From the NCBI GenBank assembly GCA_015075305.1, contig JABTUS010000009.1:62001-126000 (forward strand): a stretch of 64,000 bases of DNA, in the 5' to 3' direction. Source of the stretch: Opitutaceae bacterium. GTDB lineage: Bacteria > Verrucomicrobiota > Verrucomicrobiia > Opitutales > Opitutaceae. Both the position numbers and the translations under genes were made by a program. Positions 15,463 through 37,530 of the stretch are shown here, in pieces. Under the pieces are notes generated by a model. That model saw nothing but the letters and a program-made list of their open reading frames with translations. It was not told the DNA's origin and searched no databases. The number at the start of each line of letters is the position of its first letter. Position 1 is the stretch's first letter.

Positions 15463-15822
15463 GCGCACATCAATGCAAGTGCGCGCAGGACAAAGCCGAA
15501 ATCTGCTGTATCTGCCGATCGCCCGCATGGAGGAATGACAGCGACAGAGCAAGCTGGGGGAGGATTGTTTTCTTGGACTTGAGCCGTGGTTCAGTCGCAG
15601 TTCGCCTGCGTGGCAATCCTAGGATACCGGGACTTTTCTCAAGAAGGCCGGAGGATTGGATAGGGGAATCCTGATAGGATGGGAGTGTCGTCAGAAATCC
15701 ATCATCGGCTCTGTTCGTCCCCCGGTGCGGCGCCTCACTTCCACAAAATCTGCTTTCACCTCTCCACCGTGCGCCTCATTCACGCACCGGAAGCGTGTCA
15801 GCGTTCCCAGAGATCCCAGGCC

Positions 15823-18096: not shown

Positions 18097-18119
18097 GGTG
18101 CTGTTGTCTTCGGTCAGTC

Positions 18120-18157
18120 GTCCGGCTGCGGCGTTCGGGGGAACGCCGCAGCCGGAC
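18120..18157 (+). terminator. Perfect 17-bp hairpin between TBDR and hydrolase genes
   Basis: GTCCGGCTGCGGCGTTC (18120-18136), loop GGGG, then its exact complement (18141-18157). The stem is GC-rich and perfect. No T-run follows (ATTCCTCCCCC), so it may be an attenuator or mRNA-stabilising stem rather than a simple intrinsic terminator. It sits 24 bp after the TBDR stop. Confidence 0.6.
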
Positions 18158-18187
18158 ATTCCTCCCCCTTCCCCCAAACCCCGATCC

Positions 18188-19825
18188 ATGCGCACGCTCC
18201 TCCTTTTCTCCATCCTTTGTTTGTCCACCGTATTTGTTCGGGCTGACGCGCCGCCACCTCCCCCGGCATCGGTTGAGCAGTGGTCCATCTTCGAGCTTGC
18301 CCTGGACGGACCGACCGATGGCAACCCGTTTCTGGATGTGCGTTTTTCCGCCTCCTTCACGGACGGAACGCACACCCGCCAGGTGGACGGCTTCTACGAC
18401 GGAGGAGGCGTTTATCGCGTGCGTTTCATGCCGGAACATCAGGGAACCTGGCGCTACGTGACCAGCAGCAACCGTTGGCCGCTCACCAATCAGAGCGGTA
18501 CATTCACCGCCACGCCGCCGGGCAGGGGCAACCACGGTCCCGTCGGGGTGCGCAATACGTATCATTTCGGCTACGCGGACGGAACGCCCTTCCGGCAGAT
18601 TGGAACAACGAGCTACACCTGGACGCATCGCCCGGAGGCGCTGGAGGAGCAGACGCTGAAGACTCTTGCGATGTCCCCATTCAACAAGCTCCGCATGTGC
18701 GTTTTCCCGCAGGCGCACGGCAGCAAGAATATGCCGCCACCGCGCTGGCCCTTCGAGGGAAAACCCCGGGCATTCGACTATACGCGTTTTAACCCGGATT
18801 TCTTTCAGCACCTTGAAAAGCGCGTCGGTCAGTTGCGCGATCTCGGGATCGAGTGCGATCTGATCCTTTTCCATCCCTATGACGACAAGGAGGAGTGGGG
18901 ACTGGAGATCATGGATGCGGCCACGGACGACCGTTATCTTCGCTACATTGTGGCGCGCCTTGCCGCGTACCGGAACATCTGGTGGTCGATGGCCAATGAA
19001 TACGATTTCATGCGGGTCAAGACCGACGCCGACTGGGACCGCTATTTTCACATCGTGCAGGCAGCGGATCCCTACGGCCATCTGCGCTCCATCCACAACG
19101 GCTATCGGATGTACAACAACAACCATCCCTGGGTGACGCATGCCAGCATCCAGAATGGCTCGGCATTGAACGATGCGGGACGCGCCGAGCTCTATCGTGA
19201 CGTCTGGCGCAAGCCGGTCGTCTACGACGAGGTGAAGTACGAGGGGGATTCGCCGTTCCGCTGGGGTGACCTCAGCGCGCAGGAGATGGTGCACCGCTTC
19301 TGGGCGGGCACGGTGGCCGGCACCTACGTGGGGCACAGCGAGTTCTTCGGCGAACCGAATGATGTCGTGTGGCTGGGCCAGGGGGGCGTGCTCAAGGGCG
19401 AAAGTCCGTCGCGGCTCGCGTTTCTCCGACGCATCATGGAGGAGGGCCCGGCGGACGGCATCGATCCCATCGATCAATGGTTTGATCCGTATGCCCGTCG
19501 CAATACTCCCATCGGTGATGGTCTGGCCGAGCCCCACACCGGCGGACAGCCCGCCCAGTACTACCTGGTCTATTTTGGCCGCTCAGCTCCGAAGGAATGG
19601 GTGCCGGAAATCTACAAGAATCAGTTGGAGGACGGCATGCGTTTCAGGGCCGAAGTGATAGACACCTGGGAAATGACCGTGAAGCCCTTCGCGCAGACGA
19701 TCGTGCTCAAGCGCAACAAGACGAGCCGCGACCGCTGGGACTACTACTTCACCGATGCAAACGGCGCGAGGATTCCTCTCCCGGGAAAACCCTACATGGC
19801 CATCCGCCTGATCCGCGTTCCCTGA
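18188..19825 (+). CDS. DUF5060 / apiosidase-like glycoside hydrolase (GH140-like)
   Basis: This is a 545-residue exported enzyme with a signal peptide ending near VRADA. Residues ~25-110 form a DUF5060 beta-sandwich (VEQWSIFELALDGPTDGNPF). A TIM-barrel of the DUF4038/apiosidase type follows (TTSYTWTHRPEALEEQTLKT, DLILFHPYDDKEEWG). A C-terminal sandwich of DUF5605 type ends the protein. Candidate catalytic glutamates are E271 in SMANEYDF and E348 in VVYDEVKYEG. GH140 enzymes cleave apiose-linked side chains of rhamnogalacturonan II. The neighbours (isomerase, FGGY kinase, split transketolase) match apiose breakdown, which supports this assignment. Exact family membership needs a profile search. 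Confidence 0.7.
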   Translation: MRTLLLFSILCLSTVFVRADAPPPPPASVEQWSIFELALDGPTDGNPFLDVRFSASFTDGTHTRQVDGFYDGGGVYRVRFMPEHQGTWRYVTSSNRWPLTNQSGTFTATPPGRGNHGPVGVRNTYHFGYADGTPFRQIGTTSYTWTHRPEALEEQTLKTLAMSPFNKLRMCVFPQAHGSKNMPPPRWPFEGKPRAFDYTRFNPDFFQHLEKRVGQLRDLGIECDLILFHPYDDKEEWGLEIMDAATDDRYLRYIVARLAAYRNIWWSMANEYDFMRVKTDADWDRYFHIVQAADPYGHLRSIHNGYRMYNNNHPWVTHASIQNGSALNDAGRAELYRDVWRKPVVYDEVKYEGDSPFRWGDLSAQEMVHRFWAGTVAGTYVGHSEFFGEPNDVVWLGQGGVLKGESPSRLAFLRRIMEEGPADGIDPIDQWFDPYARRNTPIGDGLAEPHTGGQPAQYYLVYFGRSAPKEWVPEIYKNQLEDGMRFRAEVIDTWEMTVKPFAQTIVLKRNKTSRDRWDYYFTDANGARIPLPGKPYMAIRLIRVP

Positions 19826-19872: not shown

Positions 19873-21297
19873 ATGAACAAGTCTCCCGCCACTCTCGGCG
19901 TCATCTTCGGCAACCGCGATTTCTTTCCCGATCGCCTGGTGCCCGACGCACGGGCGGACGTCGCAAAGCTCTTCACCGAGCTTGGCATCGAGCCGGTCAT
20001 GCTCGATCCCGCGGACAGCAAGCTGGGCAGCGTTGAAACGCACCGCGATGCACGCAAATGCGCGGAGCTTTTTCGAAGGAATCGCGAACGCATTTCGGGC
20101 GTGCTCGTCTGCCTGCCGAACTTCGGCGACGAAAAAGGTGTCGCCGACACGCTCAAGATGGCGGGGCTCAATGTTCCGGTTCTCATTCAGGCCTATCCCG
20201 ACGAACTGGACAAACTCGATGTCATCCGCAGGCGCGACGCCTGGTGCGGCAAGATTTCCGTCTGCAACAACCTGCGCCAGGCGGGCATTCCGTTCACGCT
20301 GACGACATCGCACGTGGTGCGGCCGCTCGACGCCTCCTTCAGGCGGGACCTGCTGGATTTCACCGCCGTGTGCCGCGTGGTTCAGGGACTTCGAAAGGTG
20401 CGCCTCGGCGCCGTGGGCGCACGGCCGGGCGCGTTCAACACCGTGCGTTATTCCGAGAAGATCCTTGAGCGCCATGGCATCAGCGTCACCACGGTCGACC
20501 TGTCCGAGATCATCGGCGCGGCCTCAAAGATCGGCGACACCGACAAGCGCCTCACAGGGAAGGTCGACGAAATCAAGGCCTATGCCAATGCCACGGCGGT
20601 GCCCGCGGCGAAACTCGCGCAGATGGCCCGCCTGGGGATTGTGCTCGATGACTTTGTCGCGGCCAATCACCTCGATGCCACGGCAATCCAGTGCTGGACA
20701 TCCGTTCAGGCGAATCATGGGTGCAATGTCTGCACGTCGATGAGCATGATGAGCGAAAACTTCCTGCCCAGTGCCTGCGAAGTCGACGTGACCGGCGTGC
20801 TGACCATGTACGCGATGCAACTGGCCGCGTCTTCACCGTCCGCGATCGTCGACTGGAACAACAACTATGGCGCCGACGCGGACAAGTGCGTGCTCTTCCA
20901 CTGCGGGAACTGGGCGAAGTCGTTCCTGCCGGACATCAAGATCCTCAACGCCCCCATCCTCGGATCCACGATTGGCGTCGAAAACACCTGGGGTGCGCTC
21001 GATGGGCGCACGCCGGCCGCCCCGCTTACCTATGGCCGGATCACGACGGATGACTCGCGCGGTGTGATCCGCACGTACGTCGGCGAAGGCGCGCTGACAA
21101 GCGACGAACTCCGGACCTTTGGCAATCGTGCCGTCGCGCACGTGCCCAGACTGCAGAAGCTGATGCGTTACGTCTGCCTCGAGGGCTTCGAGCACCATGT
21201 GGTGATGAACGCATCCCGCACGGCCGGCATCCTCGCCGAGGCGTTCGAGCGCTACCTGGGGTGGGAGGTCTATCATCACGAGCCGGAGCAGGGCTGA
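19873..21297 (+). CDS. L-fucose/L-arabinose isomerase-family protein
   Basis: This 474-residue cytoplasmic protein starts at the ATG at 19873. It has the fucose/arabinose-isomerase fold signatures: an N-terminal Rossmann-like part (GVIFGNRDFFPDRLVPDARA), GAVGARPGAFNTVRYSE, the conserved ATAIQCWTSVQANHG, SACEVDVTGVLTMYA, and LFHCGNW near the C-terminus with a metal-ligand histidine. The family interconverts aldoses and ketoses with Mn2+. In this island it could be the D-apiose to D-apulose isomerase, since kinase and transketolase genes for the next steps follow directly (1-bp gap, then ATGA overlap). That substrate is inferred, not shown. Confidence 0.7.
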   Translation: MNKSPATLGVIFGNRDFFPDRLVPDARADVAKLFTELGIEPVMLDPADSKLGSVETHRDARKCAELFRRNRERISGVLVCLPNFGDEKGVADTLKMAGLNVPVLIQAYPDELDKLDVIRRRDAWCGKISVCNNLRQAGIPFTLTTSHVVRPLDASFRRDLLDFTAVCRVVQGLRKVRLGAVGARPGAFNTVRYSEKILERHGISVTTVDLSEIIGAASKIGDTDKRLTGKVDEIKAYANATAVPAAKLAQMARLGIVLDDFVAANHLDATAIQCWTSVQANHGCNVCTSMSMMSENFLPSACEVDVTGVLTMYAMQLAASSPSAIVDWNNNYGADADKCVLFHCGNWAKSFLPDIKILNAPILGSTIGVENTWGALDGRTPAAPLTYGRITTDDSRGVIRTYVGEGALTSDELRTFGNRAVAHVPRLQKLMRYVCLEGFEHHVVMNASRTAGILAEAFERYLGWEVYHHEPEQG

Positions 21298-21298
21298 C

Positions 21299-22135
21299 AT
21301 GTCGACCGACCGGGAACTCCTGCTTAAGTCGTTTGCGCTTCGGCGGCGCATGCTGCGCCTCATCCATCATGCCGGCGCCGGACACACGGGCGGGGGCTTG
21401 TCGTGCATCGACATCCTGAGCGCGCTCTACAACCGCGTGCTCTCGATAACTCCCGAGAAGGCCGACGCACCCACGCGCGACCGCTACGTGCAGAGCAAGG
21501 GGCACTGCGTTGAGGCGCTCTACACGGTGCTTTCCGACCGCGGCTATTTTCCCGATGCGGATCTCGACACGGTCTGCCGCCATGGATCGAAGTACGTCGG
21601 GCATCCCACGCGCAAAATCCGGGGCATCGAGATGAACACCGGCGCGCTCGGCCACGGCCTGCCGATCTGCCTTGGAATGGCGCTCGCCGCGAGGATGGAT
21701 GGCAATGCGTTCCGCGTTTTCACGCTTCTCGGGGACGGCGAACTCGCCGAAGGATCCAACTGGGAGGCGGCTATGGCTGCGTCGCACTACAGGCTGGACA
21801 ACCTTGCCGCCATCCTCGACCACAACACGCTTCAGATCACCGGGCACACGCGCGACGTCATGCGCAATGATCCGCTGGAGGACAAGTGGCGGGCGTTTGG
21901 GTGGGAGGTGCGCGTGGTGGACGGACATGATTTCGCGGCGCTTGTCACCGCTCTCTCGACACCGCATTCCGGCAAACCCCTCTTTGTCATCGCCAACACC
22001 GTGAAAGGAAAGGGAGTCAGCTTCATGGAAAACGTCGCGAAATGGCATCACGGTGTCCCGAGCGACGCTGAACTTGCCCAGGCTCTTGCTGAACTCAACG
22101 CAGCGGAGGAGAAATGCCGGGAGACGCTGACATGA
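21299..22135 (+). CDS. Transketolase N-terminal (TPP-binding) subunit, AptA-like
   Basis: A 278-residue protein covering only the N-terminal half of a transketolase. It has HHAGAGHTGGGLSCIDIL near the start, GALGHGLPICLGMA and the TPP/Mg motif GDGELAEGSNWEAA (about residues 144-157), and ends after GKGVSFMEN...WHH. Split transketolases act as heterodimers with the C-terminal half encoded next door. With the neighbouring FGGY kinase, the best-fitting known pair is D-apulose-4-phosphate transketolase, which yields a triose phosphate and passes glycolaldehyde to an acceptor. Its stop overlaps the next start (ATGA at 22132). Confidence 0.82.
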   Translation: MSTDRELLLKSFALRRRMLRLIHHAGAGHTGGGLSCIDILSALYNRVLSITPEKADAPTRDRYVQSKGHCVEALYTVLSDRGYFPDADLDTVCRHGSKYVGHPTRKIRGIEMNTGALGHGLPICLGMALAARMDGNAFRVFTLLGDGELAEGSNWEAAMAASHYRLDNLAAILDHNTLQITGHTRDVMRNDPLEDKWRAFGWEVRVVDGHDFAALVTALSTPHSGKPLFVIANTVKGKGVSFMENVAKWHHGVPSDAELAQALAELNAAEEKCRETLT

Positions 22136-23151
22136 GCGCCCCGGCACCTTCGATGTTCACCCCGGCCGCGCTGGTCATGGCCGAAATGCTCGGATTGAAG
22201 AGCGGTCGCGCGAATCTTGAGGAGTTTGCCGGCGCCCTGCAGTCGCTTGCATCGATCGACCCCACGATCGTGGCCGTTACCTCGGACTCGCGGGGCTCCG
22301 GCAGACTTGCGCCGTTCGGAAAGGTCCTGCCAAAACAGATCGTTGAAGTCGGCATTGCCGAGCAGAATCTGGTCGGCATCACCGCCGGCCTTTCCGCCTG
22401 TGGGAAGAAGGCCTTCGGGGTGTCGCCGTCCTGCTTCCTCACCGCTCGTTCGCTCGAGCAGATCAAGAACGACCTGTGCTATTCGGATGTCCCGGGAGTG
22501 CTGGTCGGCATCAGTGCGGGGGTAAGCTACGGTGCCCTCGGCTCCACGCACCATTCGCTTCATGACTTCGCCGTGCTCCGGGCGATCCACAATATCACGA
22601 TCATCGCGCCCGCGGACAATTTCGAGACCCGTGAAGCGGTGCGCTACGCTGCCATTGCTGCACACCCCGTGTTTCTCCGCTTTGGCAAGGCACCGATGTT
22701 CAACGTGTCTCCTGCGCAAGCCCGCTTTGAAGCGGGTGTGGCGATCACAATTCGTGAGGGGCGCGACGTGGCGTTCCTCGCAAGCGGCGAGACTGTCGTG
22801 CATGCCCTGCTGGCTGCAGAGCTGCTCGCTCAGTCCGGCGTGTCGGCGAGCGTCGTCAGTGTCCATACGATCAAGCCTCTCGATGCGGCGGCTGTGCTTG
22901 CGGCCGGCAGGGAGTGTCGCGCCGTGATCACCGTGGAGGAACACATGATTCACGGAGGCCTCGGCGAGGCCGTTGCCTCGACGCTGCTGGGCGCCGGCTT
23001 GAGGCCCGCGTTTGGGATGGCTGGTATTCCGGACGAGGACACCGTCACGGGCGCACAGGCCGAAATCTTTCGCCACTACGGAATCTCGATGGAGGGGCTG
23101 GCTGCGCGCGCACGAGAACTCCTCGATCAACCTGTCACTGGTTCGCGCTGA
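22132..23151 (+). CDS. Transketolase C-terminal subunit, AptB-like
   Basis: The ATG at 22132 overlaps the stop of the N-terminal subunit gene and is preferred over 22114. The 339-residue product has the pyrimidine-binding domain (VAVTSDSRGSG, VGIAEQNLVGITAGLS with the catalytic glutamate, STHHSLHDFAVLRAI) and the C-terminal transketolase domain (VVSVHTIKPLDAAAVLAAGR, VEEHMIHGGLGEAVAS). It would complete the active site with the upstream subunit. Translational coupling suggests 1:1 synthesis. The kinase gene follows after 22 bp. Confidence 0.85.
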   Translation: MSAPAPSMFTPAALVMAEMLGLKSGRANLEEFAGALQSLASIDPTIVAVTSDSRGSGRLAPFGKVLPKQIVEVGIAEQNLVGITAGLSACGKKAFGVSPSCFLTARSLEQIKNDLCYSDVPGVLVGISAGVSYGALGSTHHSLHDFAVLRAIHNITIIAPADNFETREAVRYAAIAAHPVFLRFGKAPMFNVSPAQARFEAGVAITIREGRDVAFLASGETVVHALLAAELLAQSGVSASVVSVHTIKPLDAAAVLAAGRECRAVITVEEHMIHGGLGEAVASTLLGAGLRPAFGMAGIPDEDTVTGAQAEIFRHYGISMEGLAARARELLDQPVTGSR

Positions 23152-23173: not shown

Positions 23174-24652
23174 ATGCTCTTTCTCGCTCTGGACCAAAGC
23201 ACATCCGCCACGAAGGCCCTGCTCTTCGATCGCAACGGCGTGACAATCGACCGCGAGTCGCTCGAGCATCGCCAGCACTATCCTCACCCCGGCTGGGTTG
23301 AGCACGACGCCGAGGAGATATGGCGAAACACGCTGGCGGTCCTGCGCAGCCTGCTCACGCGGTGGAGTCGCAGAAGAAAGGAAATCGTCTCGCTCTCCAT
23401 CACGAATCAGCGGGAGACGATTGTGGTTTTCGACCGTGTGACCGGACGGCCGCTCGCGCCGGCCATCGTCTGGCAGTGCCGGCGCGGGGATGCGTTTTGC
23501 ACCGCGCATCGCGATGCGGGTGCGGAGCCGCTCATCCGCCGCAAGACCGGTCTCAAGCTGGATGCCTATTTCTCCGGATCGAAGCTGCAGTGGCTGGTGT
23601 GGGAGGATCCGGAGATTCGAAGGAGACTGGCCGACGGCAGTGCGCTCGTCGGAACGATGGACGCGTATCTCATATTTCGGCTGACCGAAGGGAGGGTGTT
23701 TGCGACCGATCCCACCAATGCCAGCCGCACGCTTCTCTTCGACATTCACGCGTTGCAATGGGACGAGGCGCTTTGCGGCTTGTGGGATGTTCCCCTGCGC
23801 GCGCTGCCCGGGGTGAGGGAGGGTTCCGCTCATTTTGGTGAAACGACGCTCGACGGTCTGCTGTCACGATCCATCCCGATACGGGGAGTGATGGGCGATT
23901 CGCAGGCGTCGCTGTTCGCCCACCGGTGCTTCAATCCCGGATCGGCCAAGGTGACCTTTGGCACGGGCTCGTCAGTGCTGCTCAACATCGGCCGGAAGCC
24001 CCGAAACGCCGGAAGCGGAATACTCACGGCGCTCGCCTGGGTGCATGGCGGCGTCCCGACCTACGCGCATGAAGGCATCATCATCTCGGCGGCATCGACG
24101 CTCACCTGGCTGCGCGATCAGCTGGGCATGCCTGACGTGCCCGAGCTTGAGCGACTCGCCGAATCGGTTCCCGACAGCGCGGGTGTGCACCTCATTCCCG
24201 CCTTCAACGGTCTTGGGCTGCCGCACTGGCGGCCTGACGCGCGCGCGGCGATCAGCGGACTGAGCAGCTCCAGCGATCGCCGGCACATTGCGCGGGCCGC
24301 GTTCGAATCGATAGCCTTTCAGGTGAAGGACGCACTCGACATGCTGAGAGCCGCGGCCGATGTGCCGCCGGGGAGCCTGCATGCCGACGGAGGGCCGACC
24401 GCGAGCCGGTTTCTCATGCAGCTTGTTTCAGACCTTGCGGAAACGGAGCTCCGTGTTGCGGATGCGCGTGACTGCTCTCCGCTGGGAGCCGTGCTTGCGG
24501 GACAGCTCGGACTCGGGATTTTCGCATCCATCGACGACCTCTTCCGCGCACCTCCCGCCGAAACGGCCTATTCACCCGGATTGCCGGGTGCCCGGGTCGC
24601 CGCCATGCACAGCGGATGGAACCGCGCACTCCGCTCCGTACTCGCGCCATGA
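23174..24652 (+). CDS. FGGY-family carbohydrate kinase (possible D-apulose kinase)
   Basis: The start at 23174 (MLFLALDQSTSATKALLFD) is the canonical FGGY N-terminus; longer extensions come from the overlapping transketolase frame. The 492-residue cytoplasmic kinase resembles the glycerol-kinase branch: ITNQRETIVVFDRVTGRPLA, AIVWQCRRG, KLDAYFSGSKLQWL, GDSQASLFAHRCF, KVTFGTGSSVLLN and the C-terminal DGGPTASRFLMQLVSDL. It phosphorylates a sugar or polyol with ATP. Because it follows a split transketolase and an isomerase, D-apulose is the most likely substrate; glycerol or xylulose cannot be excluded from sequence alone. Confidence 0.78.
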   Translation: MLFLALDQSTSATKALLFDRNGVTIDRESLEHRQHYPHPGWVEHDAEEIWRNTLAVLRSLLTRWSRRRKEIVSLSITNQRETIVVFDRVTGRPLAPAIVWQCRRGDAFCTAHRDAGAEPLIRRKTGLKLDAYFSGSKLQWLVWEDPEIRRRLADGSALVGTMDAYLIFRLTEGRVFATDPTNASRTLLFDIHALQWDEALCGLWDVPLRALPGVREGSAHFGETTLDGLLSRSIPIRGVMGDSQASLFAHRCFNPGSAKVTFGTGSSVLLNIGRKPRNAGSGILTALAWVHGGVPTYAHEGIIISAASTLTWLRDQLGMPDVPELERLAESVPDSAGVHLIPAFNGLGLPHWRPDARAAISGLSSSSDRRHIARAAFESIAFQVKDALDMLRAAADVPPGSLHADGGPTASRFLMQLVSDLAETELRVADARDCSPLGAVLAGQLGLGIFASIDDLFRAPPAETAYSPGLPGARVAAMHSGWNRALRSVLAP

Positions 24653-24783: not shown

Positions 24784-26868
24784 ATGCAGACATCAAGCCA
24801 ATCGAAATCACTTTTGAAACTGTGCAACACCCGGATCCTGCTTCTGTTCGCCGTGCTTGCGCCGGTGCCGGCGCTTGGAGGGGAGAAGGCGCTCGTCGAC
24901 ACCGTGCGCTCTCCGCACGCGGTCATGTACATGCCCGACCTGGACGATGTGAAATGGTCCGGCGGTCTTCTCGGAGAGCGGTTCGAGGTGTGCCGCGCGA
25001 CGATGATTCCGCACATGTGGGGGATTCTCAGCGATGCCAAGGCGAGCCATGCCTGGGAAAACTACCTCATCGCCGCGGGGCTGGCGAAGGGCGAGTTTCT
25101 GGGACCGCCCTTCAATGACGGCGATTTTCTGAAGTGGTTCGAGGCGCTCGCCCAGGTCTATGCGGTCACCCGGGATCCCGCCATCGACCGCAAGATGGAC
25201 GAGATCATCGCCGTCATCGCGAAGGCGCAGCGCGAGGATGGCTACCTGCACACGCAGACCATCATCCCGCAGAGGGCGGGGCAGAAGGCGCGGGAGTTTG
25301 CCGACCGCGAGCACTTCGAGACCTACAACATGGGGCATCTCATCACGGCGGCGTGTATCCATTATCGCATTACAAGCAAGACGAGCATGCTGGATCTCGC
25401 GCGCAAGGCGGCGGACTATATCGATCGGCTCTGCCGCGAGAAACCGGCTGAACTTGCGCGCAATGCCATCTGTCCCTCGCATTACATGGGGGTGGTCGAG
25501 CTATATCGCACGACCCGCGAACCGCGCTACCTCGAGCTGGGACGGCAGCTCATTGAGATCCGCAGTCTCGTGTCTCCGGAAGTCGGCTCCGATCAGAACC
25601 AGGATCGTCTGCCATTCCGGAAGATGACGCAGGCCGTCGGGCATGCCGTCCGTGCGAACTACCTCTACGCCGGCGCCGCCGACGTGTTCACCGAGGACGG
25701 GGATTCATCGCTGCTGAAGACACTCTCCACGCTTTCCGACAACGTGGCGGACAGGAAACTCTACATCACCGGCATGACCGGCGCGATTTATGACGGAGCC
25801 TCGCCGGATGGCGTGGACTACACGCGGCACAGCTCGATCAAGACGATTCATCAGGCCTATGGCCGCGACTATCAGTTGCCGAATCTCACGGCCTACAATG
25901 AGACCTGCGCCACGATCGGTTATGGCATGTGGATCTGGCGGCAGCTCGCCGTGACCGGTGACGCCGCGTACGCCGACCTCTTCGAGCAGACGCTCTACAA
26001 CGGCGTCCTGCCAGGCATCAGTCTCGATGGAAAGGATTACTTCTACGTCAACGCCCTCAGAAAGCTGCACGATTTCCACTGGCCGATGCGCTGGTCGCGC
26101 ACGCGCGAGCCAAACATTCCGGTCAGCTTCTGCTGTCCGCCCAACGTCGTCAGAACGATCGCCGAGGCGCACAACTACGTGTATGCGCTTTCGCCGGGAA
26201 CGCTCTGGGTGAACCTGTATGCGGCCAGCTCCCTGGATACCGTCTGGGCGGACAGCGGCGCGCGCATCAGGCTGCGCCAGGAGACGGACTATCCTTGGAA
26301 TGGCTCGGTGAAACTCGTCGTCGACGAGGCCCCCGGGGGCGAAGTCACGATCAAGCTTCGCGTGCCTGGCTGGCTGCGCGATGGCGCCAGCCTGCGCGTC
26401 AATGGAAGTGCGAGCGATGCCGTCATCAAGCCCGGCGCCTACGCGAGCGTGAAACGCCGGTGGGCGGCCGGGGACACGGTCGACTTTGTCTTGAACTTCA
26501 AGCCGACGCTCTGGGAGGCCAATCCACTTGTCGAAGAAACGCTCGGGCAGGTCGCCATCAAGAACGGCCCGCTTGTCTATTGCGTGGAATCGAATGATTT
26601 GCCCGCCGGCGTCAGATTGAAGGATGTCGTCCTCGATCTCTCATCGAAGGCGGCGTTCACGAGCCGGCGTGAAACCATTTCCGGGGCGTCGTTGATGACG
26701 CTTTCGTTCAAAGCGCTGGCGCTTCAGCGCCGTGACTGGAGCGGGAGCGAACTCTACCGCGAGGTTGGAAACCGCGAGCCGCTCGCGGTGCGCATCAAGG
26801 CCATTCCGTACTACGCCTGGGGCAATCGTGGCGACACAGAGATGAGCGTCTGGTTGCCCGCACGCTGA
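24784..26868 (+). CDS. GH127-family (DUF1680) glycoside hydrolase
   Basis: This 694-residue exported protein has a signal peptide (LLLFAVLAPVPALGG). It shows the alpha/alpha-barrel of GH127: GERFEVCRATMIPHMW, QREDGYLHTQT, EHFETYNMGHLI. The zinc/catalytic residues are E373 and C375 in YNETCATIG, and C450/C451 in FCCPPNVVR, where one cysteine acts as nucleophile. C-terminal beta-domains follow. Family members are beta-L-arabinofuranosidases; one branch releases aceric acid from rhamnogalacturonan II. Given the apiosidase-like neighbour, an RG-II role is likely but not proven. A 131-bp spacer without clear signals precedes it. Confidence 0.85.
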   Translation: MQTSSQSKSLLKLCNTRILLLFAVLAPVPALGGEKALVDTVRSPHAVMYMPDLDDVKWSGGLLGERFEVCRATMIPHMWGILSDAKASHAWENYLIAAGLAKGEFLGPPFNDGDFLKWFEALAQVYAVTRDPAIDRKMDEIIAVIAKAQREDGYLHTQTIIPQRAGQKAREFADREHFETYNMGHLITAACIHYRITSKTSMLDLARKAADYIDRLCREKPAELARNAICPSHYMGVVELYRTTREPRYLELGRQLIEIRSLVSPEVGSDQNQDRLPFRKMTQAVGHAVRANYLYAGAADVFTEDGDSSLLKTLSTLSDNVADRKLYITGMTGAIYDGASPDGVDYTRHSSIKTIHQAYGRDYQLPNLTAYNETCATIGYGMWIWRQLAVTGDAAYADLFEQTLYNGVLPGISLDGKDYFYVNALRKLHDFHWPMRWSRTREPNIPVSFCCPPNVVRTIAEAHNYVYALSPGTLWVNLYAASSLDTVWADSGARIRLRQETDYPWNGSVKLVVDEAPGGEVTIKLRVPGWLRDGASLRVNGSASDAVIKPGAYASVKRRWAAGDTVDFVLNFKPTLWEANPLVEETLGQVAIKNGPLVYCVESNDLPAGVRLKDVVLDLSSKAAFTSRRETISGASLMTLSFKALALQRRDWSGSELYREVGNREPLAVRIKAIPYYAWGNRGDTEMSVWLPAR

Positions 26869-26913: not shown

Positions 26914-28236
26914 ATGAGCGAAAACACATCCCCCGCCTCGGCTGCATCATCCGGTGACGATTCAACAGTCACGCGACAGCAATGGAAATGGTCCGCCCTT
27001 GCAGGCATGGCCTCCTATCTCGACGCCGGCTCGATCGTGGCGCTTGGCGCAAGCCTGGCGGCTTTTCAGAACGAGTTTCATCTCACCAAGGGGGCGGTCG
27101 GTGCCTTGCAGGCCATAGGTCCCAACGCCATTGGCTGCGCCCTGGGTGCGTTCGCTGGAGGGTGGCTGGGGGACAAGCTGGGGCGCAAATGCATTTACCA
27201 GTGGGACCTCTTGGTTTACGCCGCCGGCATTCTCTGCGTGGCGCTCTCCGTGAACTCAGGGATGCTGTTTGCCGGCACCTTTGTCGTCGGTGTGGCCGTG
27301 GGCGCGGATGTCCCGACCTCGCTCGCGCTGGTGGGTGAGTTCGCCCCGGCCCGCGCGCGTGGCAAACTGCTCGGCTTCACACAGGTGGCCTGGTGTCTGG
27401 GGCCATCGGTGGTGCTCTGGCTGGCCATGGCGCTGGCCCCGCTCGGCCTGCTCGGCAACCGCATCCTCTTTCTTCACCTGTTTGTGGTTGCGCTCGTGAC
27501 CTGGGCGCTGCGTCGGGGGCTTGCTGAATCCGCACGATGGAAGGCCGCGGCGGCCACGGCTCGCGAGCAGGTGTCCGCCCTCCTCTCGCCCGCCAATGTG
27601 CGCGCCATGCTGTGGACGGGCACCATCTACCTATTCTGGAATCTCACGGCTGGGACTGTGGGCGCGTTTGGCGCCTACTTCAACCGTGTGCTGCTCGGCG
27701 GAAGGGACGTCAGCGAAACGCACGCCCAGGCGGTGGGCACCGGGCTGGCAAGCCTTTCATTCCTGTGCACGATGCTCGCGACAGTGTTCATTTTCATGCC
27801 GTACTCCGATCGAAGCTTTAGGGCGCGGAAATGGCTGTGGGGTGGCGGTTCGGTCCTTCAGATCGCCGCGTGGGGCATGCTCATGTTTGTGCCGTACACG
27901 GTGCCAACCGTCTTCGCCAACACCATCCTATTTGGCGTCGGTGCGGCGCTGGCCGGCGAGGCGTTCTACAAGGTGTTCAGCCAGGAACTGTTTCCGACGA
28001 TGCAGCGCGGCACCGCGCAGGGAATCACCTTTGGCGCGGCGCGGGTCCTTCTGGGCGTCTGGAGTTTCATTGCACCCATGCTCATCAATGACCAGAACCC
28101 GAACTTTCATGCGCTCGCGCTCATGCTGACCCTTTTCCTCGTCGTCAGCGGAGCCGTCGGTTTCTTCTTCATGCCCGACACGTCAGGGAAATCGCTGGAG
28201 CAGATCGCTTCGGAGCGAGCGGGTGGACAAGGATGA
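26914..28236 (+). CDS. MFS sugar/organic-acid transporter
   Basis: A 440-residue inner-membrane protein with 12 predicted helices. The MFS signature between helices 2 and 3 is seen as GGWLGDKLGRK, and the sugar-porter type ARGKLLGF motif as VGEFAPARARGKLLGF. A TSLALVGEFAP segment and the C-terminal MPDTSGKSLEQI match sugar porters. It probably brings in the monosaccharide or sugar acid released by the neighbouring hydrolases. Its gene lies between GH127 (45-bp gap) and the RuBisCO-like gene (52-bp gap). Confidence 0.82.
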   Translation: MSENTSPASAASSGDDSTVTRQQWKWSALAGMASYLDAGSIVALGASLAAFQNEFHLTKGAVGALQAIGPNAIGCALGAFAGGWLGDKLGRKCIYQWDLLVYAAGILCVALSVNSGMLFAGTFVVGVAVGADVPTSLALVGEFAPARARGKLLGFTQVAWCLGPSVVLWLAMALAPLGLLGNRILFLHLFVVALVTWALRRGLAESARWKAAAATAREQVSALLSPANVRAMLWTGTIYLFWNLTAGTVGAFGAYFNRVLLGGRDVSETHAQAVGTGLASLSFLCTMLATVFIFMPYSDRSFRARKWLWGGGSVLQIAAWGMLMFVPYTVPTVFANTILFGVGAALAGEAFYKVFSQELFPTMQRGTAQGITFGAARVLLGVWSFIAPMLINDQNPNFHALALMLTLFLVVSGAVGFFFMPDTSGKSLEQIASERAGGQG

Positions 28237-28288: not shown

Positions 28289-29533
28289 ATGGATCGCGTC
28301 ACCGCCACCTATCTGATCGAGACGGGGTTCCCGGTTGAGCAGGCTGCCGCCACTCTGGCCGGCGAGCAGTCCTCAGGCACGTTTGTGGCTGTGCCGGGGG
28401 AGACCAAGGAATTGAAGGCGCGCTTTGCCGCGCGTGTGGAGTCGATCGTGATGCGCGAGTGCGTTGGCGAGCCGTCCCTGCCGACAGGCCGCCACGCCGC
28501 CGCGCGCTACCAGCGGGCGGAGGTGGTCGTGTCGTGGTCGATGGAAAACTTCGGCACCAACCTGCCCACGCTGGTTTCAACACTTCAGGGCAATCTCTAC
28601 GAACTCGCGCAGTTCTCCGGACTCAAGCTCCTCAATTTCAGCGTGCCTCCCGCCTTTGCCGTCGCGTTTCGAGGTCCGGCGTTTGGTGTCGAAGGTTGCA
28701 GAAAACTCGTCGCGGTGAAGGGCCGTCCGCTCATCGGCACCATCATCAAGCCGAGCATCGGGCTTTCTCCGGCGGAGACGGCGGAGATGGTGGAGGAACT
28801 CGTCGGCGCGGACATCGATTTCATCAAGGACGATGAGCTGATGGCGAATCCTCCTCACTCGCCCTTGGATGAGCGGGTGGACGCCGTGATGAAGGTCATC
28901 CACCGCCATGCGGATCGCACGGGTCGCAAGGCGATGTACGCGTTCAACATCAGCGATGAATGCGATGCGATGGAGCGACACTATGACAAGGTCCTCGCCG
29001 CGGGCGGAACCTGCGTGATGCTCAGCATCAACAGCGTCGGCCTGAGCGCCGTGAAGCGGATCTGCGATCGCGGGCGGCTCGCCATCCACGGTCATCGCAA
29101 TGGCTGGGGCATGCTCAACCGCCACCCGCTGCTCGGCATTGAGTTTCCGGCGTATCAGAAGCTCTGGCGACTCGCGGGGGTCGACCAGCTTCATGTGAAC
29201 GGCATTGCGAACAAGTTCTGGGAATCGGACGATTCCGTTGTTCGATCGATTGAATCCTGCCTTGCGCCGGAACCGCTCGGACGGCCTTTGCTTCCCGTAG
29301 TCTCCTCCGGTCAGTGGGGAGGGCAGGCGCCCGAAACCTGGCGGCGCACCCGGACCGTCGACCTGCTCTACATGGCCGGCGGCGGCGTGCAGGCGCATCC
29401 AGACGGCCCGGCGGCGGGCGTGCGCGCGCTCAGGAAGTGGTGGGATGCGGCGGTCGAGGGGATGACAATGGCGGAGGCCGCCTCGAAGCATCCCGAACTC
29501 GCGAAATCGGTCGCGAAGTTTGGCCGGCATTGA
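28289..29533 (+). CDS. RuBisCO-like protein (form IV), sugar-acid type
   Basis: The ATG at 28289 gives 414 residues. It has the RuBisCO N-terminal alpha/beta domain (YLIETGFPVEQAAATLAGEQ) and the TIM barrel. Active-site positions are unusually well kept: K154 in GTIIKPSIGL, K180-D182-E183 in DFIKDDE (carbamylation motif), H269 in HGHRNG, K309 in NGIANKFWE, SSGQWGG and AGGGVQAHPDGPAAG. A true carboxylase is unlikely; no phosphoribulokinase or carboxysome genes are visible. The adjacent DUF1537 kinase (3-bp gap) points to the 3-oxo-isoapionate-4-phosphate decarboxylase or transcarboxylase group of apiose/apionate breakdown. Confidence 0.82.
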   Translation: MDRVTATYLIETGFPVEQAAATLAGEQSSGTFVAVPGETKELKARFAARVESIVMRECVGEPSLPTGRHAAARYQRAEVVVSWSMENFGTNLPTLVSTLQGNLYELAQFSGLKLLNFSVPPAFAVAFRGPAFGVEGCRKLVAVKGRPLIGTIIKPSIGLSPAETAEMVEELVGADIDFIKDDELMANPPHSPLDERVDAVMKVIHRHADRTGRKAMYAFNISDECDAMERHYDKVLAAGGTCVMLSINSVGLSAVKRICDRGRLAIHGHRNGWGMLNRHPLLGIEFPAYQKLWRLAGVDQLHVNGIANKFWESDDSVVRSIESCLAPEPLGRPLLPVVSSGQWGGQAPETWRRTRTVDLLYMAGGGVQAHPDGPAAGVRALRKWWDAAVEGMTMAEAASKHPELAKSVAKFGRH

Positions 29534-29536
29534 GCC

Positions 29537-30835
29537 ATGCTGCGACTGGCCTATCTTGCGGATGACTTCACGGGCGCAACCGATGCGCTCGAGACGCTCG
29601 CCCGCGCGGGATTGAGGACGAGGCTCTTCCTGCGCGCGCCGGCAGCGGACGAGTGCCGCGGTCTCGATGGCGTGGGAGTCGCGGCACTTTCGCGATCGCT
29701 GTCACCGGATGCGATGGAGACGGAACTGCGCCCTGCATTCACCGCGTTGCGGGCGTTGTCGCCGCGGCATGTGCACTACAAGGTCTGCTCGACGTTCGAT
29801 TCCTCGCCCGCGGTTGGAAGCATTGGCCGTGCGATTGAGATCGGCGCCGAGGTTTTCGGCACCGCCGTGGTCCCGGTGCTTGTGGCCGCACCCGCACTGG
29901 GACGGTACTGCGCCTTTGGGAATCTATTCGCGCGATATGGCATTGGAAGCGCGGGCATTATCCACCGGTTGGATCGTCACCCATCCATCAGCCGGCATCC
30001 GGTGACACCCATGACCGAGGCGGATCTGGTCGTGCATCTGGGGCGTCAGACAACCCTGCCGATCGGATTGCTCGATTTCAGGGCGCTTGAGAACGATGCA
30101 TCATCGGCTTGGGCGGGGCTGCGGACTTCGGGCAGCAGGATCGTCCTGATCGACGGATTGAACGCGGCGCATCTGCTTCACGCGGGAGAGCTCCTCGAGA
30201 ATCTTCCCGGTGCAACGCGATTTGTTGTGGGTTCTTCGGGTGTCGGAGCGGCGTTGTGTTCGTATTGGACGTCTGAAGGAATGCTTGTGCCACCATCCGA
30301 GCATCAACGTGCAGAGTCGCAGGGACCGCTGCTCGCTGTGTCGGGAAGCTGTTCGCCGGTTACTGCTGGGCAGGTGGAATGGGCGCGGGGCAATGGTTTT
30401 GAAATTGTCGACGCCGATCCCAATCATCCTGACGCTGTGAGCACGCTTGAGCAGGTCGTGGATGGTCTTCGCCGTGGCAGGCATGTGATCGCCTGCACCC
30501 ACACAGGACGGGCGGAGGTGCATGTCGGCGCGGAGAAACTCGGAGCGGGACTTGGCCGCCTTGCGCGTGCGGCGATCGCAGCAGCGGGTGTTGGACGCCT
30601 TGTGGTGGCGGGAGGAGACACCTCAAGCTACGCCGCGCGGACCCTGGGCATTGAGTCGCTCGAGATGGCCGCGCCGCTGTCGCCCGGCGCGCCGCTCTGC
30701 CGGGCGCATGCGACCGATTCACCGGTCGACGGGATGCTGGTGAACTTCAAGGGCGGGCAGGTCGGGGCGCCTGACTATTTCGGACAGGCGGCTGGTGGCA
30801 CTGCCTCCGGGCCGGTGCGGGGGACTGAATCCTAA
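29537..30835 (+). CDS. DUF1537 four-carbon acid sugar kinase family (OiaK-like)
   Basis: A 432-residue cytoplasmic kinase starting MLRLAYLADDFTGATDALET, the DDFTGATD motif that marks the family's substrate-binding domain. The C-terminal nucleotide-binding domain shows LAVSGSCSPVTAGQVEWA and VVAGGDTSSYAARTLG. Characterised members phosphorylate L-threonate, D-erythronate, D-threonate or 3-oxo-isoapionate. Here the partner is a RuBisCO-like protein, not an aldolase, which favours 3-oxo-isoapionate. The gene starts three bases after the RuBisCO-like stop and is probably translated from the same message. Confidence 0.82.
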   Translation: MLRLAYLADDFTGATDALETLARAGLRTRLFLRAPAADECRGLDGVGVAALSRSLSPDAMETELRPAFTALRALSPRHVHYKVCSTFDSSPAVGSIGRAIEIGAEVFGTAVVPVLVAAPALGRYCAFGNLFARYGIGSAGIIHRLDRHPSISRHPVTPMTEADLVVHLGRQTTLPIGLLDFRALENDASSAWAGLRTSGSRIVLIDGLNAAHLLHAGELLENLPGATRFVVGSSGVGAALCSYWTSEGMLVPPSEHQRAESQGPLLAVSGSCSPVTAGQVEWARGNGFEIVDADPNHPDAVSTLEQVVDGLRRGRHVIACTHTGRAEVHVGAEKLGAGLGRLARAAIAAAGVGRLVVAGGDTSSYAARTLGIESLEMAAPLSPGAPLCRAHATDSPVDGMLVNFKGGQVGAPDYFGQAAGGTASGPVRGTES

Positions 30836-30884: not shown

Positions 30885-31541
30885 ATGAAGAAGACCCTCG
30901 CTCTCATTCACACCTCGGCGACGCTTGTCCCCGTTTTTCAGCAACTGACGAAGGCGAAGCTCGCGTCGGTGGAGACCTTCAACATTGTCGACGACAGCCT
31001 CGTGCGGCAGATCGGTGCGAAGGGAGGCATTACGCCGGACATCTCGGCGCGCGTCGCGGCGTACATTGGATCCGCGGCGTCGGGTGGAGCCGACCATATC
31101 CTTGTCACTTGCTCCTCGATCGGACCCGCGGTGGAGGAGGCGGCCCCGACGGTGAGGGTTCCCGTGCTGCGGGTGGACCAGCCGATGGCGGATCGCGCCG
31201 TGCGGACGGGACGCCGCATCGGGGTGATCGCCACCCTGCCGACCACGCTGACCCCGACGGCGGATCTGGTCAGGCGCCGCGCCGCGGCGGCGGGCAGGGA
31301 AATGGAACTGACCTCGCGACTCTGTGACGGTGCGTTCGATGCACTGATGGCCGGCGACGCGCAGAAACACGACACGATTGTTGCTGCGGCGCTTCGCGAG
31401 CTTTCGCGTTCAGTTGATGTGATTGTGCTGGCCCAGGCCTCGATGGCGCGTGTGGTCGACACTCTGACCGAATCAGAGAAGCGGGTGCCGATCCTCGCCA
31501 GTCCGCCGCTCGCGATCGAATACCTGGCAACCGTATTGTGA
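30885..31541 (+). CDS. Asp/Glu racemase-superfamily protein with one catalytic cysteine missing
   Basis: The ATG at 30885 gives 218 residues of the Asp/Glu/hydantoin racemase fold (MKKTLALIHTSATLVPVFQQ). The first catalytic cysteine is present in VTCSSIGPAVEEAA. At the position of the second cysteine the sequence reads IVLAQASMARV, with no cysteine. A two-base racemase mechanism therefore seems unlikely; a decarboxylase, isomerase or binding role is possible. Similar single-cysteine proteins occur next to sugar-acid kinases, so a step in the island's acid-sugar branch is plausible. It follows the DUF1537 gene by 49 bp. Confidence 0.65.
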   Translation: MKKTLALIHTSATLVPVFQQLTKAKLASVETFNIVDDSLVRQIGAKGGITPDISARVAAYIGSAASGGADHILVTCSSIGPAVEEAAPTVRVPVLRVDQPMADRAVRTGRRIGVIATLPTTLTPTADLVRRRAAAAGREMELTSRLCDGAFDALMAGDAQKHDTIVAAALRELSRSVDVIVLAQASMARVVDTLTESEKRVPILASPPLAIEYLATVL

Positions 31542-31647: not shown

Positions 31648-32955
31648 ATGAATCCCCTTCGAAAAGTCTGCCCGCTGCTTGCCGGTATTTCCGCGCTGAT
31701 CGTGATCGCCGGCCTCGGGCTTGATCACACCGCGCTGTGGCAGGCTGCGGCGGTGGCGGCTGCGGTGTCGCTGGCGATCGGCCTGGGAGCGGTGCGGTCG
31801 CTGAAAGGGTATCAGTTCACGGCCTGGATCCTTGCTGCTGTCGTCGCAGCGATGATGTATCCATCCGCGTTCCTGCAGTGGGGCGAACTCGATCTTCGCA
31901 ACAAGTGGGTGATCCTGATTGTTGTGCAGCTCGTGATGTTCGGCATGGGGACTCAGATGAGCCTTCACGACTTTGCGGGGGTGGCGAAGGCGCCGCGGGG
32001 CGTGCTTGTCGGCATTGTCTGCCATTTCTCGGTGATGCCGATCGTCGGATGGACGCTGACGAAGGTCTTTCATTTCGAGCCGGAGATTGCGGCGGGCATC
32101 ATTCTCATCGGATCCTGCTCGAGCGGGCTGGCCTCGAATGTGATGACGTACATTGCGAAGGCGAATCTACCCCTGTCGGTCACCGTCACGGCGGTGACGA
32201 CGATGGTTGCGCCGATCATGACGCCGCTGCTGATGAAGCTGCTGGCCGGCACGCTGGTCGAGGTGAGGTTCCTGGGCCTGATGGTTGAGATCATCAAGAT
32301 CGTGCTCGTACCGATAGCTGCGGCGCTGATTCACGATCACTTGAAGCGCGTGACGGACGGGCGCCGCCGCGGCTGGATGCTGGCCCAGATCGTGTGCGGG
32401 ATTGGGGCCGTGATGATTTTCACGGCGCAGGACCACGCCTGGGCGCTCGGGCAGTCACCAGGCCTCCGGCTGATGCTGGAGCTTTTCGCCTTCGCCCTCG
32501 GTGCGGTCGCCGTTGGTGTGACCTACCATCAGATCACGAGGATCTTCACGCGGCTCGATACGCGGATGCCGCTCGTCTCGATGGCCGGCATTGTGTATTT
32601 CACGACGGTGACAACGGCCGCAGGCCGCGACAATCTGCTCAAGGTCGGCGCACTGCTTTTCCTGGCGTCAATGCTGCACAATGCCGCCGGGTATTTCTTC
32701 GGGTACTGGCTGAGCCGCGGTGCGGGGCTGGACAGGAATTCGGCCCGTTCCGTGGCGTTCGAGGTCGGCCTGCAGAACGGGGGCATGGCCTCCGGACTGG
32801 CCGGTGCGATGGGAAAACTCGCGACGGTCGGACTTGCGGCGGCGATATTCAGTCCCTGGATGAACATCTCCGGCTCGATCCTCGCGAACCACTGGGGCCG
32901 CCGACCCGCGCCGCGGGAGAAGCGTGATGGAGAGGGGGCTCGAGCCGAGGCGTAG
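31648..32955 (+). CDS. Bile acid:sodium symporter (BASS/SBF)-family transporter
   Basis: A 435-residue inner-membrane protein. After two extra N-terminal helices it shows the SBF core: VMFGMGTQMSLHDF, GSCSSGLASNVMTYIAKANL with the family's conserved substrate/sodium region, and FEVGLQNGGMASGLA near the end. BASS proteins import organic anions with Na+. As the last gene of the sugar island it could bring in a sugar acid such as apionate. The terminus is rich in charged residues. A 106-bp spacer separates it from the racemase-like gene. Confidence 0.78.
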   Translation: MNPLRKVCPLLAGISALIVIAGLGLDHTALWQAAAVAAAVSLAIGLGAVRSLKGYQFTAWILAAVVAAMMYPSAFLQWGELDLRNKWVILIVVQLVMFGMGTQMSLHDFAGVAKAPRGVLVGIVCHFSVMPIVGWTLTKVFHFEPEIAAGIILIGSCSSGLASNVMTYIAKANLPLSVTVTAVTTMVAPIMTPLLMKLLAGTLVEVRFLGLMVEIIKIVLVPIAAALIHDHLKRVTDGRRRGWMLAQIVCGIGAVMIFTAQDHAWALGQSPGLRLMLELFAFALGAVAVGVTYHQITRIFTRLDTRMPLVSMAGIVYFTTVTTAAGRDNLLKVGALLFLASMLHNAAGYFFGYWLSRGAGLDRNSARSVAFEVGLQNGGMASGLAGAMGKLATVGLAAAIFSPWMNISGSILANHWGRRPAPREKRDGEGARAEA

Positions 32956-36907: not shown

Positions 36908-37185
36908 AAGTGATCAGACGCGACAATTTTGGAAACGTTAGAAAGATGACGATAATGTAATGAGCATGCCGCGGAGAGATGATGCTGTTAAAAAATTGAT
37001 GCTTGTTGCCGGTGGACGGCACGCCACGTACTGGATTGCGCGAATTTCACTGCTCAAGGAAGCAGGGAATGTCGCGGTGCTTGACGTTTGAAATGTGCGG
37101 ATTCAATGAAAGGCATGCGTCGCCCGTCGCCTGCGACACTTCGGTTCGATGACAGTCGCTGTTTGCATTGCATTTCCATTCCCGA

Positions 37186-37530
37186 ATGAAAACCAAACGT
37201 TATGGAGCCGTCATTGGAGTTCGCGATGAGTCCATCGCCGACTATGTCCGAATCCACTCGGAAGTCTGGCCGGGTGTGCTCGCGAAGATCAAGGAGTGCA
37301 ACATCCGCAACTATTCAATCCATCTGCGACGGATGCCCGACGGGCGCGCCTACCTGTTCAGCTACTATGAATACGCGGGTGGCGACCATGCGGCGGACAT
37401 GGCGAGAATGTCGGCGGATCCCCTGACGCAGGAGTGGTGGAAAGTTTGCATGCCGATGCAGGAGCCTCTTGCGGACCGTCCGGAGGGAGCCTGGTGGGCC
37501 CCATGCGACGAGGTGTTTCACCTCGACTGA
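37186..37530 (+). CDS. rhaM: L-rhamnose mutarotase
   Basis: The ATG at 37186 gives a 114-residue cytoplasmic enzyme of the DUF718 family, which speeds up alpha/beta anomer exchange of L-rhamnose. Typical motifs are MKTKRYGAVIGVRDESIADY, HSEVWPGVLAKIKE with the likely catalytic histidine, YSIHLRRMPDGRAYLFSYYEY, and the terminal WWAPCDEVFHLD. A rhamnose permease (rhaT) lies ~10 kb away on the other strand. The gene stands alone. The 36908-37185 gap holds no gene; no clear promoter was recognised. Confidence 0.88.
   Translation: MKTKRYGAVIGVRDESIADYVRIHSEVWPGVLAKIKECNIRNYSIHLRRMPDGRAYLFSYYEYAGGDHAADMARMSADPLTQEWWKVCMPMQEPLADRPEGAWWAPCDEVFHLD

Follow-up and report, generated by a model that had tools for sequence, protein, structure and literature searches.

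The locus described here raises the question of what a RuBisCO-like protein (RLP) does when its gene sits among genes for glycoside hydrolases and transporters. It lies in a 64,000-nucleotide stretch of DNA from an Opitutaceae bacterium (contig JABTUS010000009.1, positions 62,001 to 126,000), called the window below, in which the RLP gene occupies positions 28289..29533 of the + strand. On a narrow balance, we judge that the RLP would act as a decarboxylase within a gene cassette for aceric acid breakdown, with the substrate and every reaction being predicted from sequence comparison. Aceric acid, 3-C-carboxy-5-deoxy-L-xylose, is a rare branched sugar acid of the pectin rhamnogalacturonan II (RG-II). 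The best-supported description is that the cassette would hold a version of the OiaX/OiaK pair specialised for aceric acid, and the genomic association is strong. OiaX, OiaK and OiaT were reportedly defined by Carter et al. 2018. A more specific version is tentative, and we place it somewhat short of even: here the RLP would work in reverse on 3-C-carboxy-5-deoxypentulose 1-phosphate, alongside an isomerase of racemase fold with a single Cys.

The RuBisCO-like protein and its active site

The RLP gene is a full-length open reading frame (ORF) that starts with ATG, has no internal stop and encodes 414 amino acids. Its product scores above the cut-offs of two Pfam models (RuBisCO_large, PF00016, 218.8 bits; RuBisCO_large_N, PF02788, 30.7 bits), and the closest solved structure, 3nwr, shows full-length homology with E 2.3e-120. 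As measured by these scores, the similarity to the RuBisCO family far exceeds chance. The clade to which the protein belongs was assembled from the best 80 of 266 stretches encoding an RLP relative, at 65–83% identity, which together with the window make 81 loci. Residue counts refer to an alignment of 82 clade members, consisting of the window, the 80 genome loci and one plasmid. RuBisCO equivalents are given in brackets, in a numbering that was transferred through the alignment, not by structure superposition.

K154 (K175), K180 (K201), D182 (D203), E183 (E204), H269 (H294) and K309 (K334) are invariant in 82/82 sequences, as are S339-S340-G341-Q342 and A363-G364-G365-G366. The original prediction held that the RLP has a nearly complete RuBisCO active-site set, and every residue it named is unchanged throughout the clade; E26 (E60), T31 (T65), N102 (N123), R270 (R295) and H302 (H327), absent from its list, are also kept in 82/82. 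In total, 11 of the 13 RuBisCO catalytic positions checked are kept in the RLP. The other two are altered in all 82 members, K177 to S156 and W66 to F32, and this replacement of catalytic residues together with homology to the RuBisCO large chain places the protein in form IV. The archaeal RuBisCO 2cwx has SGGL in place of SSGQ, two of the four letters being different. By alignment, the RLP retains the metal-binding residues of RuBisCO, most of the residues that handle the enediolate and the glycines of the phosphate loop. The site appears intact, in keeping with the earlier suggestion that a carbamylated-lysine/Mg centre may form.

The 11 retained positions could be taken as a sign of a true RuBisCO or of the methionine-salvage enolase MtnW, but K177 and W66 are replaced throughout, and the scores fall far below the respective cut-offs: 239.3 against 497.45 bits for the form III RuBisCO model TIGR03326, 128.8 against 513.6 bits for the MtnW model TIGR03332, and 166.3 against 409 for a second enolase model. 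No other salvage gene is found among those conserved neighbours that were annotated, and we give this reading next to no weight. The phylogenetic check proposed at the outset points the same way, as the RLP is not an MtnW by score and is distant from the photosynthetic-type protein 1ykw in both trees that were built. In the more thorough tree, built from 39 proteins of which 21 belong to the clade, the clade has a support of 100/98, although the bootstrap had yet to converge completely and several of the 18 outside sequences have long branches. A faster tree, with all 82 clade members and 18 outside sequences, likewise holds the clade together. Its members come from Verrucomicrobiota, Bacteroidota and one planctomycete (Phycisphaerae) metagenome-assembled genome. 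The structure 3nwr lies on another branch and differs from the clade in having N for S at the K177 position and H for N at 304.

The best NCBIfam match of the RLP is the OiaX model NF042437, with 512.3 bits and below its cut-off of 700. RLPs encoded beside ApnO-like genes also fall below this cut-off (Shinella 472, Cupriavidus 473 and Halalkalicoccus 518 bits), and the equivalog model seems to name one sub-branch only, given the 472–518 bits of the RLPs of the ApnO-carrying loci L082, L083 and L084. A search of the window's own genome for a second RLP returned none at E 0.001. Pontibacter qinzhouensis carries two clade RLPs in one assembly (L020 and L027), and the L027 copy has no kinase, racemase-like gene or symporter in its stretch.

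Cassette partners and the GH127 hydrolase

Clustering of ORFs across the 81 loci reveals four genes that co-occur, namely, those for the RLP (81), a racemase-like protein (78), a DUF1537 kinase (77) and a symporter of the bile acid:sodium symporter (SBF) family (73). Some of the locus stretches stop at contig ends, and therefore some of the absences are not real. In the window, where all genes of the run are on the + strand, the kinase gene (29537..30835) begins three bases past the RLP stop, an adjacency noted previously that recurs as a pairing in 77/81 loci. The kinase exceeds the cut-offs for PF07005 (179.5 bits) and PF17042 (92.0 bits), which makes it a member of DUF1537. Its best NCBIfam match is the OiaK model NF042436 (365.2 bits, below the cut-off of 700), and the 3-oxo-tetronate kinase model gives 193.7 bits.

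The next gene (30885..31541) encodes the Asp/Glu-racemase-like protein (PF01177), which is predicted to be an isomerase. Its first Cys, in the motif VTCSSIG, is invariant in 78/78 rows; the place expected for the second racemase Cys reads LAQASM and contains no Cys. The protein is probably not a two-base Asp/Glu racemase. A sequence search against solved structures returned nothing, and the predicted model (pLDDT 95.5) matched the general racemase fold only, with glutamate and aspartate racemases followed, lower down, by hydantoin and allantoin racemases and arylmalonate decarboxylase. The racemase-like protein is found at 62–68% identity in exactly the seven RLP genomes of 296 Bacteroidota, and at 67–100% in exactly the five clade-RLP genomes of 103 in the window's order; three more matches, at 31–40%, occur in genomes of that order without a clade RLP. 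Contig C5 of the window's own genome encodes a paralogue at 37% identity. At L101:4445-7179, two transketolase halves are followed by a 276-residue paralogue that is 29% identical to the window's protein, and here the fold is again beside sugar genes. The fourth cassette gene (31648..32955; PF01758) encodes the SBF symporter, predicted to take up an organic acid. A second transporter gene, of the MFS type (26914..28236; PF07690/PF00083), lies upstream of the RLP, and its cluster is present in 7/81 loci.

Preceding this transporter is a gene for a glycoside hydrolase of family 127 (GH127; 24784..26868; PF07944) of the aceric-acid-hydrolase type. The protein scores 897.4 bits with the aceric acid hydrolase model NF049879, and its best solved relative (E 3.7e-206) is 5mqo, which we take to be the structure of BT1003. 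BT1003, of the same type as the window's enzyme, is named an aceric acid hydrolase in two papers (PMC10850190, PMC5698469).

The occurrence of this hydrolase follows that of the clade. Among the 103 genomes of the window's order, GH127 matches above 870 bits are found in five, exactly the five with a clade RLP, and in 0/98 of the others. The 870-bit line was set after the gap had been seen, the next best match having 693 bits, and GH127 of any strength (E 0.001) is present in 37/103. A Fisher test of the link gives p 1e-8, or 2e-7 without the window's own genome, uncorrected for relatedness. Of the 296 Bacteroidota genomes, 17 have GH127 (E up to 1e-230), including all seven with an RLP, whose GH127 partners all exceed the cut-off of 950 bits; the p value is 9e-9 without the centre genome, again uncorrected for relatedness. 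All 42 of the further RLP genomes searched carry GH127, at 854–1211 bits and above the cut-off in 32; they represent 39 of the 50 loci without GH127 in the stretch, selected for that absence, and three with one, and 11 loci were left out. Aceric-type GH127 is thus present in 53/53 clade genomes tested, one genome being shared by two sets. In verrucomicrobial and planctomycete genomes, the copies that adjoin or accompany a clade RLP reach 854–933 bits, just below the cut-off.

The two genes are also close. They share one contig in all 12 genomes from the two taxonomic samples, separated by 21 bp–5.2 kb in nine and by 27–52 kb in three. No other glycoside hydrolase cluster occurs as often near the RLP as GH127, which in 14/81 loci is directly upstream on the same strand (up to 107 bp). 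The opposite pattern is seen in G031, a genome of the same order with an RLP outside the clade (57% identity), where ApnL and ApnO adjoin the RLP and no such GH127 is present. More distant RLP-kinase pairs occur amid pectin-type glycoside hydrolases at L087:7175-11528 (Croceibacterium) and L107:1235-15242 (Streptomyces); the L087 GH127 matches the aceric acid hydrolase model weakly, with 87 bits.

A candidate route for aceric acid

In the proposed route, GH127 would free aceric acid, and the SBF or MFS transporter would import it. An isomerase would then turn this aldose into its 2-ketose. The racemase-like protein is the most likely candidate for this step, as it is the only enzyme besides the kinase that regularly accompanies the RLP; otherwise a fucose-isomerase-type enzyme might serve. 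Since the carboxyl group is on C3, the 2-ketose of aceric acid would be a 3-oxo (beta-keto) acid. This ketose, HOOC-C(OH)(CHOH-CH3)-C(=O)-CH2OH, differs from 3-oxo-isoapionate, an intermediate of the apiose route, in its side chain alone. The DUF1537 kinase would phosphorylate the C1 hydroxyl adjoining the newly formed keto group, in the manner assumed for OiaK and its own substrate. Using a carbamylated K180 and Mg bound by D182/E183, the RLP would remove CO2, and protonation of the enediolate would give 5-deoxypentulose 1-phosphate in a step that resembles RuBisCO carboxylation in reverse. Finally, a class II aldolase encoded elsewhere in the genome would cleave this product to dihydroxyacetone phosphate and acetaldehyde.

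The likeness to OiaX (NF042437) lies in the RLP subfamily, the OiaK-like DUF1537 partner and the HOOC-C(OH)(R)-C(=O)-CH2-OP skeleton of the proposed substrate. In contrast to OiaX, the window's RLP scores below the cut-off, belongs to a separate clade (100/98) and mostly has no ApnO or ApnL partners. The cassette adds the racemase-like protein, the SBF symporter and the link to GH127, and the proposed R is CH(OH)CH3 rather than CH2OH.

The same phosphorylated 3-oxo acid could instead be handled by a transcarboxylase/hydrolase of the OiaT kind. RLPs performing both decarboxylation and transcarboxylation/hydrolysis on 3-oxo-isoapionate-4-phosphate are reported in PMC6302742. Nevertheless, the closest NCBIfam model is OiaX, with no OiaT model among the matches and no labelled OiaT sequence compared, and we consider such an activity quite unlikely.

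Several points weigh against the aceric acid proposal as a whole. The isomerase step is its weakest link; enzymes of the Asp/Glu-racemase fold are not known to isomerise aldoses. There is no aldolase in the cassette. Class II aldolases are encoded in 25/26 clade genomes tested, with one without, and they were dropped as a pathway marker for being too common. Both the kinase and the racemase-like gene are missing from the stretches of L027, L047 and L068 (the L068 contig ends there), and L074 is without a DUF1537 kinase in its stretch. The nearest relatives of the clade are two NCBI-named OiaX proteins from Agrobacterium and Rhizobium plasmids (94/93, on a long branch), and the 13 catalytic columns are identical in the clade and in the RLPs of apiose-type loci. 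The window's GH127 misses the curated cut-off (897 vs 950 bits), and a BT_1020-type hydrolase for a different RG-II sugar, Dha (3-deoxy-lyxo-heptulosarate), is also present in 44/53 clade genomes. For distant homologues of BT1003 that are encoded in a carrageenan locus, PMC5698469 suggests other sugars as targets. The hydrolase is within the locus stretch in just 31/81 cases, 10 of the 17 GH127-bearing Bacteroidota genomes are without an RLP, and general RG-II use accounts for part of the GH127-RLP pattern.

Extended to the whole pattern, this last point would mean that some other carboxylated compound arising from pectin is the substrate of the RLP and that shared RG-II use is all that ties the RLP to GH127. 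The 10 RLP-less Bacteroidota genomes would fit, and many neighbours are indeed other pectin-type enzymes. However, among the hydrolase clusters near the RLP GH127 is the most frequent, and it is directly upstream in 14 loci; we regard this explanation as highly improbable.

Two of the loci without the kinase share an arrangement. At L047:7956-14041 and L074:7869-16193 the RLP comes right after GH127, and BT_1020-type and GH43-like genes follow it. Cluster 107 of these loci was considered as a substitute kinase and rejected as GH43-like.

Apiose, Dha and the surrounding genes

The substrate implied by the original prediction was 3-oxo-isoapionate-4-phosphate, which arises from D-apiose through ApsD, ApnL and ApnO with an OiaK-type kinase and is decarboxylated by OiaX. 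ApnL is identified also through its NCBIfam name; other enzymes of apiose breakdown are OiaC, an apulose kinase and an apulose-4-phosphate transketolase. An orthodox OiaX would agree with the 512 bits to the OiaX model, on par with RLPs beside ApnO-like genes (472–518), with the OiaK-like kinase, and with NCBI-named OiaX proteins as the sister group. An apiosidase-like gene is present in the window, and the genome has ApsD, ApnL and ApnO homologues.

In apiose-type loci, the RLP and kinase lie beside an ApnO-like gene with a phosphogluconate dehydrogenase C-terminal domain (L082, L083, L084, L089 and L112), and L082 and L089 add ApnL-like and Gfo/Idh/MocA (ApsD-like) genes beside the RLP. L083, on a Halalkalicoccus plasmid, combines a haloarchaeal RLP, a DUF1537 kinase and an ApnO-like gene with a GntP permease. 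The loci of Shinella (L082), Microvirga (L089) and G031 (L103) resemble the window's in the RLP beside a DUF1537 kinase and in the same 13 catalytic residues. They differ in the ApnO-, ApnL- and ApsD-like genes alongside and, in G031, in being without GH127. RLPs of the apiose-type loci fall on other branches of the 39-protein tree, and 18 other alignment columns separate them from the clade.

In the clade loci, ApnL and ApnO gave no match at E 1e-6, and ApsD gave weak matches only (22–26% identity, six loci). Of the 47 clade genomes searched, 45 yielded no ApnL/ApnO homologues. Both are present in 3/48 genomes (the 47 and G031), namely, G031, G131 and the window's own genome, G000. In G000 and G131 they are off the RLP contig, and their neighbours are an ApsD-like gene and one for a TIM barrel resembling xylose isomerase. 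The two TIM barrels are 41% identical to each other and could be the kinase-free decarboxylase OiaC; these candidate OiaC genes have no NCBIfam match. On contig C5 of the window's own genome, as in L101 and L102, there is a separate oxidative apiose locus (ApsD-, ApnO- and ApnL-like genes and an ABC transporter), with the TIM barrel beside ApnO and no RLP.

The window itself contains a gene run that likely fits the non-oxidative apiose route. It consists of the apiosidase-like glycoside hydrolase (18098..19825; PF13204, PF16586, PF18310), a sugar isomerase with an L-fucose-isomerase C-terminal domain (19873..21297; PF02952), the N-terminal (21299..22135; PF00456) and C-terminal (22114..23151; PF02779/PF02780) halves of a transketolase, and a glycerol-kinase-like FGGY kinase (23174..24652; PF00370/PF02782 and NCBIfam glycerol kinase models), which would belong to the same apiose (apulose) module. 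The isomerase could alternatively act on aceric acid. Since the genome has an apiose locus without an RLP and the window holds this non-oxidative run, the use of apiose does not seem to require the window's RLP. The apiose route was rejected as the main explanation for the clade on the genome search for ApnL and ApnO and retained as a rival, so that the substrate implied earlier is not favoured. With the 700-bit cut-off also missed, we find an orthodox OiaX role unlikely.

Aceric acid has a further competitor in Dha. Through an aldolase and an isomerase, Dha could yield 3-oxo-tetronate-4-phosphate, which has the same skeleton minus the branch and might be the acid that the RLP decarboxylates. 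DUF1537 kinases include 3-oxo-tetronate kinase, to whose model the window's kinase has the 193.7-bit match given above. The BT_1020-type Dha hydrolase, besides its presence in the 44 clade genomes, occurs in 12/81 loci and is closer to the RLP than GH127 in three of the 12 taxonomic-sample genomes (G165, G177 and G346). On the other hand, a BT_1020-type match was not found in 9/53 clade genomes, all verrucomicrobial, while GH127 is in 53/53. G013 and G133 have weak partial BT_1020-type matches only, and in five clade genomes of the window's order the matches are on contigs other than the RLP's. Across the 63 genomes searched in all, a BT_1020-type match is also present in 9/10 that are GH127-positive and RLP-less.

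A separate run beside the cassette at L010:14732-20648 holds an SSF-cluster symporter, an Fe-alcohol dehydrogenase, an aldolase of the dihydrodipicolinate synthase type, PdxA and a second DUF1537 protein nearest to D-threonate kinase. Comparable genes are found at L012:14674-19564 (symporter cluster, an overlapping ORF of the Fe-alcohol-dehydrogenase cluster, aldolase and PdxA) and at L030:18227-21236 (dehydrogenase, aldolase and PdxA clusters). The L010 run is possibly a Dha catabolic module that needs no RLP, and it fits Dha better than the cassette does. The L010 and L012 genomes belong to the nine for which no BT_1020-type match was found, and another enzyme may free Dha in them; the comparison of Dha hydrolases is therefore only a moderate argument. 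Taken together, we hold the 3-oxo-tetronate substrate to be very unlikely.

The gene run of the window is headed by a TonB-dependent receptor (15679..18096; PF07715 Plug). Near the RLP run are a gene of the L-rhamnose mutarotase family (37168-37530), a GH95 gene (43609-46014) and a RhaT-like symporter (47167-48216), all of which fit plant-wall sugars.

The hydrolase that frees aceric acid is already known. The portions of open-licence papers searched (including PMC12168206, PMC10850190, PMC12282258, PMC6353982, PMC7939467 and PMC5698469) gave no description of what bacteria do with aceric acid once it has been freed, and a breakdown route via an RLP was not found described in them. If the aceric acid proposal is true, aceric acid would join the short list of known RLP substrates, and the clade would be a naturally occurring example in which the active site of RuBisCO handles beta-keto acids with varied side chains.

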